In this document: positions 13,398 through 53,317 of the stretch, in pieces | How positions within the stretch are numbered: the first letter of the stretch is position 1 | Layout: each line of letters opens with the position of its first letter | Assembly (NCBI RefSeq): GCF_900089955.1 | Contig: NZ_FLQX01000135.1 | Location: 1-64,000, forward strand | DNA: 64,000 nucleotides | Source: Candidatus Accumulibacter aalborgensis | Lineage (GTDB): Bacteria; Pseudomonadota; Gammaproteobacteria; Burkholderiales; Rhodocyclaceae | Direction of reading: 5' to 3' | Position numbers and translations under genes: made by a program | Notes under the pieces: generated by a model | Database searches by the model: none | What the model was told of the DNA's origin: nothing | The model's input: the letters and a program-made list of their open reading frames with translations, nothing else

Positions 13398-13474
13398 GGT
13401 GATGTAGCTCAGTTGGTTAGAGCGATGGATTCATAACCCATAGGTCGGTGGTTCAATTCCACCCATCACCACCA
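13398..13474 (+). tRNA. tRNA-Met (CAT anticodon), elongator type
   Basis: 77-nt cloverleaf with encoded CCA. Acceptor GGTGATG pairs with CATCACC; the D arm is GCTC...GAGC, the anticodon loop TTCATAA, and the T arm has GGTTCAATTCC. The first acceptor pair is a matched G-C, unlike the mismatch of initiator tRNAs, which supports an elongator. One A-C mismatch appears at the base of the anticodon stem. Confidence 0.95.
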
Positions 13475-13834: not shown

Positions 13835-14158
13835 TCACTTGCGGCGCGGGTTCTCCTGAAACCTGTTCATGTCTCGCCACACCTCAAAGTAGGCGTTGTG
13901 CCGATCGTCGTCGGTCACCTGGTTCTTGAAGTTCCCGTAGGCGATGCTCCGCACGGATTCGGCGATCGCGTCCACGACCTGACTACGCAGAATGCGCGCT
14001 CTGTATCGGTAATCGGTCCCGGCGCCTTCGATGACTTGAGCCTCCGGGAAAATCCGTTCGATGTCGCCGCTTCTCCTGGCTCGAACCAGAAGCGTGCAGC
14101 CGGTTTCATCGCCCTTGTCGACGATCGAGAGAAAGGCATCCGGCAGAAAAATCCACAT
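13835..14158 (-). CDS. Conserved short protein of unknown function
   Basis: 107 aa starting MWIFLPDAFLSIVDKGDETG with a central DYRYRARI and a later YGNFKNQV motif. From memory, a widespread family of uncharacterised short proteins shares the MW-(I/F)-F start and the Y-R-A and NFK segments. No signal peptide, membrane segment or catalytic motif is obvious. Last gene of a minus-strand cassette after the NUDIX protein (21-bp gap), suggesting co-transcription. Confidence 0.7.
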   Translation of the reverse strand: MWIFLPDAFLSIVDKGDETGCTLLVRARRSGDIERIFPEAQVIEGAGTDYRYRARILRSQVVDAIAESVRSIAYGNFKNQVTDDDRHNAYFEVWRDMNRFQENPRRK

Positions 14159-14179
14159 GAGCGTGTCCTCGGTTCTTGT

Positions 14180-15526
14180 TTACTTCAACAGCGCCTTGAG
14201 CAGTGGCGCATCTTTGCTATTGGTCAGGAAGCTGGCCAGTGCCGCTCGGGGCACCAGCGACACCGCTTGCGACTCCCATCCCATGTCGGCCGGGTTACCG
14301 CCGACGCGCCGGGCCAGATAGTAGCGGGTCGTCGTCATTGTGCGCTGCGAATCCGCCAGGAACCCGGTGATCTGCACCTGGAGCCCTGATTCCTCGAGGG
14401 CTTCCCTGATCGCCACCGCCTGCAGCGGCAAGCCGGCTGCATCGACCCTGCCCTTGGGGAAGGTCGCGCTGTAGCCACCGAAGCCGTTGCTGGGATGAAC
14501 GATCCACACGCGGCCATCCGCTTCCTCGACGACGACACCTGCGGCAGCGTGCTTACCCGATCCGACGTGAAAGGTCGGTTCAACGAGGTCCGCCATCTGG
14601 CCCTGTACGCTCTTCCATTCGAGGTCGGTGGTCGGCGCATTCGCCCAGGAGAGGAAAGGCAGGCCGTTGATCTCCGTGGGCATTGGTCCGTCCGGGATGA
14701 CCATAGCCGTCTTGCCGGGATCATACCAGGCGGAAAGCTTCGTCGGGGTACTGGGGTGCCCTAGTTTCACGGGCTTTCCATGTTCGTCCAGGCGCGGATG
14801 CAGGGACGGCCCTGGTTCCGGTTCGGGCTCATCCGCCCGCCACTCGTCTGCATCGGCGGCCCGCTCCTCGACCTCGCCCTCGTCAGTCTCGACTTCGGCC
14901 GCCGCACGCTCCCAGACGTAATCCTTGAGCGTCCGTCCCGGCATGTAGACCGTGTTGGTGCCCAGCAGCACGGCGGCGACAAAGGCTTCCAACACTTGCA
15001 GACGTTCGAGCAACACCTCCATGTCGCAGTGTGCGTCCTTGACCGCTTTGGAGATGAGGCTGCCGATCTGCAGCGAGACACCAGCCAGACCTTCGGAGAC
15101 GATGCAGGAGAGATTTTCACCATCGTAGTAATCCGGATCGAGGTCGAAGTAGCGAATGACTGCCTTGCCGAGTTCCGCGAGTAGTGAGCCCCTGGCTTCC
15201 TCCAGTGAGCCGTTGAAGTATGCCGGGTCCATGTTGATCTCGGCATGCGTGGCGCGCCAGCCATCGGCCCTCGGTTCGAAATGGATGCGGAACATGTAGA
15301 ACCCGGTCCAGCTTCGGTAAATGTGCAATCCACTGTCCGCGAAATAGGCGAACCATTTCTCCTCCATCGCAACGGGGACATATCCGAGGCGAATGTTCGC
15401 CATCTGCGCTTCCGTGAACGGGATATACAGCGGCATGAGGACCGGCATCTCGGTCATCGGCTTGAGATCCCGCCAATCGTTGCGGGTTGCGGCGATCGGC
15501 CGCTCGGGTGGAGCGGGCGTGGTCAT
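14180..15526 (-). CDS. Two-domain protein with C-terminal NUDIX hydrolase
   Basis: 448 aa. The first 200 residues or so form an unrecognised domain (YVPVAMEEKWFAYFADSG, then HIYRSWTGFYMFRIHFEPR), followed by an acidic linker. A NUDIX domain occupies about 285-445, with its box at 359-382: G-RVDAAG...REALEESGL. The box has one extra residue between the G and the REALEE helix and Gly where Glu is usual, so the substrate cannot be guessed. Overlaps the ADP-ribosylglycohydrolase stop by 4 bases. NUDIX enzymes often cleave ADP-ribose, which fits the neighbour. Confidence 0.75.
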   Translation of the reverse strand: MTTPAPPERPIAATRNDWRDLKPMTEMPVLMPLYIPFTEAQMANIRLGYVPVAMEEKWFAYFADSGLHIYRSWTGFYMFRIHFEPRADGWRATHAEINMDPAYFNGSLEEARGSLLAELGKAVIRYFDLDPDYYDGENLSCIVSEGLAGVSLQIGSLISKAVKDAHCDMEVLLERLQVLEAFVAAVLLGTNTVYMPGRTLKDYVWERAAAEVETDEGEVEERAADADEWRADEPEPEPGPSLHPRLDEHGKPVKLGHPSTPTKLSAWYDPGKTAMVIPDGPMPTEINGLPFLSWANAPTTDLEWKSVQGQMADLVEPTFHVGSGKHAAAGVVVEEADGRVWIVHPSNGFGGYSATFPKGRVDAAGLPLQAVAIREALEESGLQVQITGFLADSQRTMTTTRYYLARRVGGNPADMGWESQAVSLVPRAALASFLTNSKDAPLLKALLK

Positions 15527-16384
15527 GTGGCTGCCGTTGCCACGGCCGGCAGCAGTTTCTCGGCCATCGTGCCGATCATTTCGCCCATGGCCAGCTTCTT
15601 AAGCCACTCCTGTGGAATTCCGGCCTCGCCGTAGAAGGCACCGGCGATCTGGCCGGTGATCGCTGCCGTGGTGTCGGCGTCGTCGCCGAAATTGGTCGCC
15701 ATCAGCACGGCTTCGCGGTAGTTGCCGGTCTGCTGGAAGCACCACAGGCTCGCTTCGAGGCTCTCTACCACGTAGCCGCTGCCCTTGACCTGCGCTCGCG
15801 TCTTGGCCCGATAGCCGCCGGCAGCGATCGCCGCGAGCTTCGGGGGTAACTCACCCGCGTGGTCGGGCACGGCGAGAACCGCCTCCTTGTCGGCGCCGTG
15901 CGTGGTGCGCGACTGCTCGCCGCAATACTGCACGGCCAACTTCATGTCGTCGAGGTAGCGGATCGGCACTGGTGCCAGGCGCATGATGCAGCCGTTCCCG
16001 GCGCTGTGCGGGTCGGTCGAGCCGCACAGCGGATTACCGTAGCGCCGGAACTGCCGCAGAGCCTGGCTGACGGTGCCGCCGATGTCGAAGCAGCGGCCGT
16101 TGCTGCTCATGTAGCCGTTCTGCGCCCAGTCCTGGTAACGGAGCATCTGGTCCTGGGGATCGAACCCCCTGGCCAACAGACTGGCGCCGAGGCACAAGGC
16201 CATCGACGCGTCGTCCGTAAACTCTCCGGGATTGAGCCGGAATGGCCCGCCGCCGACCATGTCGGTAACTTCCGGGAAGCTGCCGCGGCGGCGGAATTCG
16301 ACGGCGGTGCCCACGGCATCGCCAGTCGCCAGTCGCCAGTCCCAGCAGCGCACCGCGTGCGCGATCGATTCGGTCCGCATTCAT
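15523..16384 (-). CDS. ADP-ribosylglycohydrolase with frame-switching repeat near its start
   Basis: About 285-aa DraG/ARH-fold enzyme that removes ADP-ribose from modified targets. Metal-binding motifs are present: FTDDASMAL, SAGNGCIMRLAP and FGDDADTTAAITGQIAG. The RBS (GGGGAG) precedes overlapping start codons ATGAATG. From ATG 16384 the N-terminus reads like the family (MNADRIDRARGALLGLATGD), but three tandem copies of a heptanucleotide (16319-16339) put the rest out of frame. ATG 16380 in the other frame gives an uninterrupted protein with an altered first 17 residues. Two copies would restore the normal reading. Confidence 0.85.
16319..16339 (+). repeat. Heptanucleotide tandem repeat (TCGCCAG x3)
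   Basis: Three exact copies inside the fifteenth to twentieth codons of the ADP-ribosylglycohydrolase gene. A change of one unit shifts the reading frame; two copies encode LATGDAVG in frame with the ATG at 16384. Could be a phase-variable switch, a fixed mutation or an assembly error. Confidence 0.8.
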
Positions 16385-16802
16385 CTTTGCTCCCCGTGTA
16401 TTGGTCGGCCCGTTATGCCGGGACTGTAGCTCAGCAGGTGAGCCCCAAAAGGTCAGACGCTCACGATTCTTGAGTTTTCCGCTTGCGTTTCCACAATTCT
16501 TCGCCGCGGGTTGGGTGATCGCGCAGACCGAAGGCCTCTTCGGCGCCCAGGCCAAACGGGTCGCCCTGCGTCGTTGACGAGTGGCTGGCGTCACCTTCGC
16601 GCCTTGCTCGTGTTGATCGCCGACGGCAGCAAAGTCGTCCGCGCGACGCCGGACACCTGATGGCAGTGACGTAGCCATTGCCACAATCACAGCCCGTTTC
16701 ACCACCCGACGGCCCGAGGCACACGCCTTTGGCGGTCTTCTTGCTTGGGAGATTCACCATGCCCATGCCGGAACCCGGATCATTGTACGTTAGAATATCG
16801 GC
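16385..16802. other. Intergenic region with doubtful ORF
   Basis: Between the glycohydrolase cassette and the amidase. A minus-strand frame (16461-16766, starting MGMVNLPSKKTAKG with a CDCGNG motif) looks partly coding, especially its end (GDPFGLGAEEAFGLRDHP), but has no clear ribosome site and a low-complexity Arg-rich middle. It may be a frameshifted remnant. A TAGAAT at 16791-16796 is a possible -10 element. Confidence 0.3.
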
Positions 16803-17684
16803 ATGACGCGCTGTGCACTCATCGCCCGGATCGCTTCCTGGCCTCCTGATCGGCCCGTTGCCAGACAACAGGCAAATCACCTTCGCGACTGCGTCCGCCG
16901 GCGTTCGAGGTCATTTTCTCGCCTTCTGCGCGCCACGCGTCTCGCTGTCGCCTGCGCTTTCCTGGCCGGCTGCGGCGGACTTCCGATAGGTCCAGAGGAA
17001 CGGGCCATTGTGGTTCCGTCGCCAAACCACAATGCCCGTCGGCCAAATTTCGTCATCCTGCACGACACCAGCAACAGCACCGTCGACCGTGCCCTCAGGA
17101 CGCTCACCGACCCGGCGCGCGAAGTCAGTGCGCATTACCTGATCGGACGCGACGGCACCTTGTACCAGCTCGTCGACGAAAGCCGGCGCGCCTGGCACGC
17201 TGGCGCTTCGTACTGGGGAGGTGACACCGATCTCAACTCGGCGTCGATCGGCATCGAGCTCGACAACACCGGCGCCGAACCTTACTCGGAAGCGCAGATC
17301 CTCTCTCTCCTCGATCTGTTGAAAGGCTTGCAGGAACGTTACCGGATTCCGGCGAGCAATTTCCTCGGGCACGGCGACGTGGCCCTGCGGCGAAAAGTCG
17401 ATCCGAGTCGGCACTTCCCCTGGGAACGCCTGGCCAGACAGGGGTTCGGCCTGTGGTGCGACGAACAAGCGCTAACGCTGACGCCAAACCCGGATCCTGC
17501 CGATCCTCTGCTTGCCCTGCAGGCCATCGGTTACGACGTTGCCAATCCTGCCGCCGTCCTGGCGGCGTTTCGGCGGCATTTTCTCGGCATCGAGCGCATC
17601 GCTAAGGACGGTGAAACGAGCGCGGCGGAGCGCCGGTTGATGCAGTGCCTGGCGATCGCGAAGCGCAGGAAACCCGCGTCATGA
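16803..17684 (+). CDS. N-acetylmuramoyl-L-alanine amidase, AmiD-like lipoprotein
   Basis: 293 aa. A basic N-terminal region leads to a lipoprotein signal ending in the lipobox LAGC (Cys57). The amidase_2 domain shows zinc ligands in FVILHDTSN and GHGDVALRRKVDPSRHFPW, with SAHYLIGRDGTLYQLVDE and IGIELDN between. The C-terminal 80 residues (DPLLALQAIGYDV..., LAAFRRHFLG) form a peptidoglycan-binding domain. Outer-membrane-anchored amidases of this type cleave the stem peptide from murein or anhydro-muropeptides during wall recycling. The true start may be downstream of ATG 16803, since the part before the signal is unusually long. Confidence 0.85.
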   Translation: MTRCALIARIASWPPDRPVARQQANHLRDCVRRRSRSFSRLLRATRLAVACAFLAGCGGLPIGPEERAIVVPSPNHNARRPNFVILHDTSNSTVDRALRTLTDPAREVSAHYLIGRDGTLYQLVDESRRAWHAGASYWGGDTDLNSASIGIELDNTGAEPYSEAQILSLLDLLKGLQERYRIPASNFLGHGDVALRRKVDPSRHFPWERLARQGFGLWCDEQALTLTPNPDPADPLLALQAIGYDVANPAAVLAAFRRHFLGIERIAKDGETSAAERRLMQCLAIAKRRKPAS

Positions 17685-52207: not shown

Positions 52208-53317
52208 ATGTCAATGAATGAGAGCGTGCTGCTGATCGCCGCTGGTGTGTTCGTCGCTTTTCTCCTGCTCCGTTTCTTCATCGCCCGCCGTTCTGGCGGC
52301 CATCGACAAGCGGGAGAGCAAGCCAGCCATGAAGCCGAGCGCCAAGCCGCCGAGGAGGCCGAACGCCAAGCCGCCGAGGAGGCCGCTCGCCGCGAAGCCG
52401 AACGCCAAGCCGCCGAGGAGGCCGCTCACCGCGAAGCCAAACGCCAAGCCGCCGAGGAAGCCGCCCGCCGCGAGGCCGAACGCCAAGCCGCCGAGGAAGC
52501 CGCCCGCCGCGAGGCCGAACGCCAAGCTGTCGAGGAGGCCGCTCACTGCGAGGCCGAACGCCAAGCTGTCGAGGAGGCCGCTCACCGTGAAGCCGAACGA
52601 CAAGCTGTCGAGGAAGCCGCCCACCGCGAAGCCGAACGCCAAGCCGCCGAGGAGGCCGCTCGCCGCGAAGCCGAACGCCAAGCCGCCGAGGAAGCCGCTC
52701 GCCGCGAGACCGAACGCAAATCTGTCGAGGAAGCCGCTCACCGCGAGGCCGAACGCCAAGCCGCCGAGGAAGCCGCTCGCCTGGAGACCGAACGACAGTC
52801 CATCGAGGAAGCTCTTCGCCAGGAAGAGCAGGAAATGCTGGCCGTCGAGGCAGCAATCCGCCGGGAATCGGAACGTCAGGCCGCCGAAGAAACGCAACGC
52901 CAGGCCCGCGCAGCGGCCGCGGCGAAGCCCAAGCCACCCGAACAGACCGTAGTGATGGTCGCTGACGATTCAAAGGTCGTGCGCATCAAGACCGGCCGCC
53001 TGCTCAGCGCGCACCAGTACCAGGTTGTGGTGGCCGAAGACGGGCTCGACGCGGCCCGACAGATCGGCAGTTCGCTACCCGACGTGCTGGTGACCGACGT
53101 AGACATGCCCGGTATGGGTGGCTTCGAACTGACGCGGCAACTGCGCGGCGATCCTCGTACCGCGCATGTGCCGATCATCATGGTGACCTCCGACAGTGAG
53201 CAGCTACGTTCCGAGGCCGCCGCAGCGGGAGTCAACGTGATCCTCGGCAAACCTTACCCCGAAGAACAACTGATTGCCCACATTCAGCGGCTGATGAGCA
53301 GCCAGCGCGGCGGATGA
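52208..53317 (+). CDS. Membrane-anchored response-regulator receiver protein with 13-residue repeats
   Basis: 369 aa. Residues 7-26 form one membrane helix; about 41-231 are some fourteen repeats of 13 residues (consensus REAERQAAEEAAH), predicted as a long charged coiled coil like the TolA stalk. Residues 247-365 form a CheY-like receiver: acidic pair D253-D254, phospho-Asp297 in VTDVDMPGMGG, and Lys348 in GKPYP. No output domain follows. GGGAGG precedes ATG 52208. The next gene overlaps by ATGA. Confidence 0.85.
   Translation: MSMNESVLLIAAGVFVAFLLLRFFIARRSGGHRQAGEQASHEAERQAAEEAERQAAEEAARREAERQAAEEAAHREAKRQAAEEAARREAERQAAEEAARREAERQAVEEAAHCEAERQAVEEAAHREAERQAVEEAAHREAERQAAEEAARREAERQAAEEAARRETERKSVEEAAHREAERQAAEEAARLETERQSIEEALRQEEQEMLAVEAAIRRESERQAAEETQRQARAAAAAKPKPPEQTVVMVADDSKVVRIKTGRLLSAHQYQVVVAEDGLDAARQIGSSLPDVLVTDVDMPGMGGFELTRQLRGDPRTAHVPIIMVTSDSEQLRSEAAAAGVNVILGKPYPEEQLIAHIQRLMSSQRGG
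52328..52900 (+). repeat. 39-bp tandem repeats in the coiled-coil region
   Basis: About fourteen imperfect 39-bp units encoding REAERQAAEEAAx. Several neighbouring units are nearly identical at DNA level, so unit number may vary between strains. Confidence 0.85.

Follow-up and report, generated by a model that had tools for sequence, protein, structure and literature searches.

A three-unit heptanucleotide array at the start of an ADP-ribosylglycohydrolase gene of Candidatus Accumulibacter aalborgensis: probable erosion of a defence-type islet rather than a translational switch

The window analyzed here is a stretch of 64,000 nucleotides from the Candidatus Accumulibacter aalborgensis genome (contig NZ_FLQX01000135.1, assembly GCF_900089955.1). 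Between a tRNA-Met gene and an amidase gene it carries an islet of three minus-strand genes, which encode an ADP-ribosylglycohydrolase (ARH), a NUDIX hydrolase and a small protein termed MWIF. The locations of these genes and of the features discussed below are collected in Table 1. The start codon of the NUDIX gene overlaps the ARH stop codon (ATGA). None of the PADLOC models matches any of the three proteins (13835-16384), and MWIF, which also lacks Pfam and PHROG matches, has an NCBIfam match that lies below cutoff.

Table 1. Positions of the islet genes, their borders and the sequence features near the ARH start
Feature	Position	Strand	Basis
tRNA-Met (CAT), islet border, also present in G005	13398..13474	+	
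107-aa MWIF protein, third cassette gene	13835..14158	-	no Pfam, PADLOC or PHROG match
N-domain + NUDIX hydrolase, 448 aa	14180..15526	-	PF00293
Junction of 288-bp in-frame deletion between two CGCGGAA copies, NUDIX gene	15173..15179	-	L159 and four other relatives
ADP-ribosylglycohydrolase ORF (ARH/DraG/Tri1 fold), 285 aa, altered N-terminus and internal deletion	15523..16380	-	PF03747
Junction of 63-bp (21-codon) in-frame deletion	15891..15892	-	alignment of 42 relatives, model comparison
Heptanucleotide array, (CTGGCGA)3 on coding strand, TCGCCAG x3.3 on + strand	16319..16341	-	sequence, tandem census
ATG2, in frame with enzyme body at three units	16378..16380	-	frame reading
ATG1, family-like start, out of frame with enzyme body at three units	16382..16384	-	relatives' starts, frame reading
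Shine-Dalgarno-like GGGGAG	16390..16395	-	putative function, from sequence
N-acetylmuramoyl-L-alanine amidase gene, other islet border, conserved in G005	16803..17684	+	

Three exact TCGCCAG units occupy positions 16319-16339 and the periodicity runs to 16341, while TRF adds an imperfect fourth unit and extends the array to 16345. The minus strand around the array and both starts reads GGGGAGCAAAGATGAATGCGGACCGAATCGATCGCGCACGCGGTGCGCTGCTGGGACTGGCGACTGGCGACTGGCGATGCCGTGGGCACC; here the three CTGGCGA units (16339-16319) are preceded by CTGGGA, a fourth copy that is one base short. This is the only exact seven-nucleotide tandem of three units in the window, and none arose in 200 simulated windows (first-order Markov, 64 kb each). 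Two-unit tandems of the same length occur as often as these simulations predict (5 seen, about 5 expected). The 21-mer of the array has a single occurrence in the whole 4.7 Mb genome. A 39-bp tandem array of 11.7 copies with 88% match lies elsewhere in the window, at 52319-52812, and is unrelated to the heptanucleotide array.

The array holds one unit beyond what the family reading frame allows. Both the seven nucleotides of a unit and the four nucleotides that separate the two ATGs equal 1 modulo 3, and the sequence and its frames agree with a preliminary description in which three units put ATG 16384 out of frame and ATG 16380 in frame: reading from ATG 16384 gives a 116-aa out-of-frame product, and reading from ATG 16380 gives the 285-aa ORF. 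That description had also placed both ATGs within range of a single GGGGAG, as borne out by spacings of 5 nt to ATG 16384 and 9 nt to ATG 16380. Its further proposal that ATG 16384 is usable with two units and ATG 16380 with three holds as well, in that the two-unit reading, MNADRIDRARGALLGLATGDAVGTAVEF, restores the exact family start (cf. Methylotenera). The ancestral two units correspond to the codons CTG GCG ACT GGC GAT (L-A-T-G-D). With three units, translation from ATG 16380 would yield MRTESIAHAVRCWDWRLATGDAVG, in which family-like sequence resumes at L17-A18-T-G-D. The N-terminus is thus altered, as had been noted, over some 15-16 residues without homology rather than the 17 first given. 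Because two units restore the family N-terminus, the three-unit state is, on sequence comparison, the derived one, arising by duplication of one unit.

The availability of a second start was assessed in 30 relatives, which were searched for a +1-frame start codon within -21 to +30 nt of their own start. An ATG that would rescue the frame occurs by chance in 4 of the 30, and any of ATG, GTG or TTG in 11. Because equivalent codons are this common, ATG 16380 is an unremarkable and fortuitous coincidence. An RNA hairpin that might regulate the two starts was also considered and was ruled out by comparison with shuffled sequences, as the stability around both starts is no greater than that of the shuffles (z = 0.31).

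The encoded protein is assigned to the ARH family by profile score. It matches PF03747 at 208.1 bits, above the gathering cutoff of 26.2, in two stretches that leave profile positions 159-192 unmatched, and it scores under the equivalog cutoffs of NF041672 (Tri1 ADP-ribosylarginine hydrolase; 276 bits, cutoff 490) and TIGR02662 (DraG dinitrogenase reductase-activating glycohydrolase; 130.5 bits, cutoff 337). Between the RTTH and GSGY motifs it has 42 residues, versus 61-70 in all 42 aligned relatives, and in this span the gene is exactly 21 codons shorter than its closest relatives. The helix that follows the TTH motif, present in 42 of 42 relatives, is absent, leaving the all-helical core incomplete; the solved homologues 6dre (Tri1), 2cwc (Thermus) and 2woc (DraG) align through the deleted segment without loss. 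Since the core helix is missing in both frames, neither reading is likely to give a normal enzyme, and activity has most likely been lost or severely reduced. The earlier suggestion that the enzyme would be made in both states as a functional switch is not supported, as these 21 residues are lost whichever start is used.

Predicted structures agree with the alignment. The AlphaFold model of the intact closest relative, L032, has a mean pLDDT of 94 and a continuous helix at residues 5-29, and its counterpart of the deleted segment is an 18-residue helix (166-183; pLDDT about 96). The model of the window protein has a mean pLDDT of 81 and a broken first helix, and confidence falls in the active-site loop AGNGCIM (58-64) and further at the deletion junction (43-55), where the low values may partly reflect poor alignment coverage. 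Its best structural matches in the PDB are nevertheless Tri1 entries (6drh/6dre), the nearest fold, and Thermus ARH. Like Tri1, DraG and ARH (6dre, 2woc, 2cwc), it has the fold and the metal-binding motifs, but its N-terminal helix is replaced and one core helix is missing. The TDD (T55 D56 D57) and DxDT (D234 A235 D236 T237) motifs of PF03747 proteins, which we take to be the metal ligands, are kept and are invariant in the alignment; beside them, TDDT has become TDDA. In the alignment with relatives 9 of 89 conserved positions are changed, five of them due to the two lesions. Global decay by substitution, considered as a separate possibility, is weakly visible, most deviations stemming from the two ARH lesions. 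A further damaged copy lies on an Azonexus hydrophilus plasmid (L097, 4953-7311), where an IS256-family transposase interrupts a related ADP-ribosylglycohydrolase gene.

The neighboring NUDIX protein is without approximately 96-100 residues that are present in four relatives. Its deletion junction is a 7-bp direct repeat, which fits recombination between CGCGGAA copies 288 bp apart. A locus of the same genus (L159 in genome G005) keeps the deleted segment, with DNA identity of 77-87% on either side, and its islet sits between the same amidase gene and tRNA-Met as in the window. No ARH gene is present at the G005 islet. The tRNA-Met/amidase site is occupied there by a type III-like helicase-NUDIX gene (L159:8995-12372), and this copy is damaged, with about 460 residues of the helicase-NUDIX fusion gone and a stop interrupting the NUDIX part.

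We consider it likely that the 7-bp duplication and the other lesions represent slippage erosion of the remnant of a restriction-type defence islet, and not a switch. Replication slippage would have added one CTGGCGA to two accidental units; the duplication follows from comparison, whereas slippage is its presumed mechanism, a short-direct-repeat signature being evident at the 288-bp deletion. The extra unit shifts the frame of ATG 16384. ATG 16380 happens to fall in the new frame, within range of the same GGGGAG, and translation of the remaining 285 aa could begin there, with 15 residues that lack homology in place of helix 1. The yield from ATG 16380 would probably be reduced by competition from ATG1. 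Residual translation is plausible and would keep the coupling to the NUDIX gene. Together with the 63-bp and 288-bp deletions, the duplication fits the erosion of an islet, bordered by the amidase gene and tRNA-Met, that was once under selection. Counting against decay, the ARH frame is open over 285 codons with TDD and DxDT retained, and two in-frame deletions combined with a rescue start form a pattern that selection to keep the ORF uninterrupted would also produce. If the decay is real, the ORF being conserved elsewhere and the small number of other conserved positions changed suggest that it is recent. The locus illustrates how two repeat units that arise by chance from codons, combined with a second ATG, can look like a contingency switch, and how a search for further lesions in that gene tells decay apart from regulation.

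An assembly or sequencing error, with two units actually present in the organism and translation beginning at ATG 16384, is an unlikely alternative to erosion. The genome is a draft of 181 contigs, short tandem arrays are a classic site of error, and two units give a perfect family N-terminus. The tract of 21-27 bp is, however, shorter than any common read, and an error would leave the 63-bp and 288-bp lesions in the operon unexplained; the direct repeat at the latter marks it as a genuine deletion.

Slippage between two and three units could instead alternate translation between ATG1 and ATG2 and so change the level or the N-terminus of the enzyme. In the lic genes of H. influenzae, several ATGs in different frames lie upstream of CAAT repeats, and the tetranucleotide tract is long, variable and under selection. 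The window locus resembles them in having alternative starts in different frames that are read through one tract, but its tract has three units and its second ATG is a coincidence. In neuO of E. coli K1, a coding heptanucleotide (AAGACTC) tract of 3-53 units varies between strains, and full-length translation requires a unit number that is a multiple of three (PMC13001214). The likeness lies in a seven-base tandem repeat early in the coding sequence of an enzyme, where unit number sets the frame; here there are just three units, derived from two accidental ones, and no known variation. The (GACGA)n tract of H. influenzae hsdM has 1-4 units, with strain variation and a measured switching rate (PMC2651432). 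It too is a short tract in a defence-type gene in which one unit shifts the frame, whereas the window gene has no known variation and carries other lesions.

We regard such a switch as quite improbable. The frame arithmetic works, one Shine-Dalgarno sequence reaches both ATGs, the tract is unusual for this window and occurs nowhere else in the genome, and short tracts can switch elsewhere (hsdM, (GACGA)4 to 3, PMC2651432; neuO heptanucleotides, PMC13001214). There are only three units here, although three units alone do not exclude switching, since hsdM tracts of three to four units switch. The preliminary description had looked to related genomes for variation in the repeat, but none of about 40 relatives from public genomes has a seven-nucleotide tandem at the site, which rules out a conserved contingency tract. 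Within the genus, compared with one genome per species, there is no second ARH gene of the same branch and no second copy of the locus with an ARH gene; the other ARH-family genes of the genus, including C127 in the same genome, belong to a different, DraG-like branch. No virus or plasmid DNA-level copies able to show unit variation were found. A rescue ATG is, moreover, not rare by chance (4/30), and the core helix is missing from the enzyme in both states. Of the hallmarks of a contingency locus, a frame-altering tandem tract is present (three 7-nt units, +1), whereas conservation of the tract in orthologues is lacking, as is an intact on-state product, given the helix deletion in both frames; the enzyme is presumably inactive. 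The switch is unlikely because the tract is not conserved, there is no evidence of variation and the product is broken in both states.

A compact, shortened yet functional ARH started at ATG 16380, to which the lineage would have adapted, is very improbable. An open ORF, the kept metal ligands, two in-frame deletions and the retained translational coupling to the NUDIX gene through the ATGA overlap would accord with such an enzyme, but the helix is missing in no other member, model confidence is poor around the active site and 15 N-terminal residues are without homology. Most doubtful of all is the idea that the three-unit array acts as an active, reversible switch between two starts of the shortened ARH, with two N-terminal forms, in a restriction-linked NUDIX/ARH cassette.

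The cassette itself, a by-product of this analysis, outweighs the array in importance. NUDIX, ARH and MWIF genes, or two of the three, occur together in L032, L035, L036, L038, G157, G110 and an Aeromonas plasmid. Among the neighboring genes are those of type I restriction in L151 and L090, of a type III restriction subunit in L092 and of a ZorD-like helicase in L036. In L091 a type III-like restriction helicase and the NUDIX protein form a single fusion, next to a type III methyltransferase. The recurrence beside restriction and Zorya-type genes, together with the L091 fusion, suggests an uncharacterized ADP-ribose- or nucleotide-processing arm of defence loci. A fragmentary second MWIF copy lies in the same genome (L149:3594-3740, G000:C159), where 49 residues with 63% identity contain one stop.
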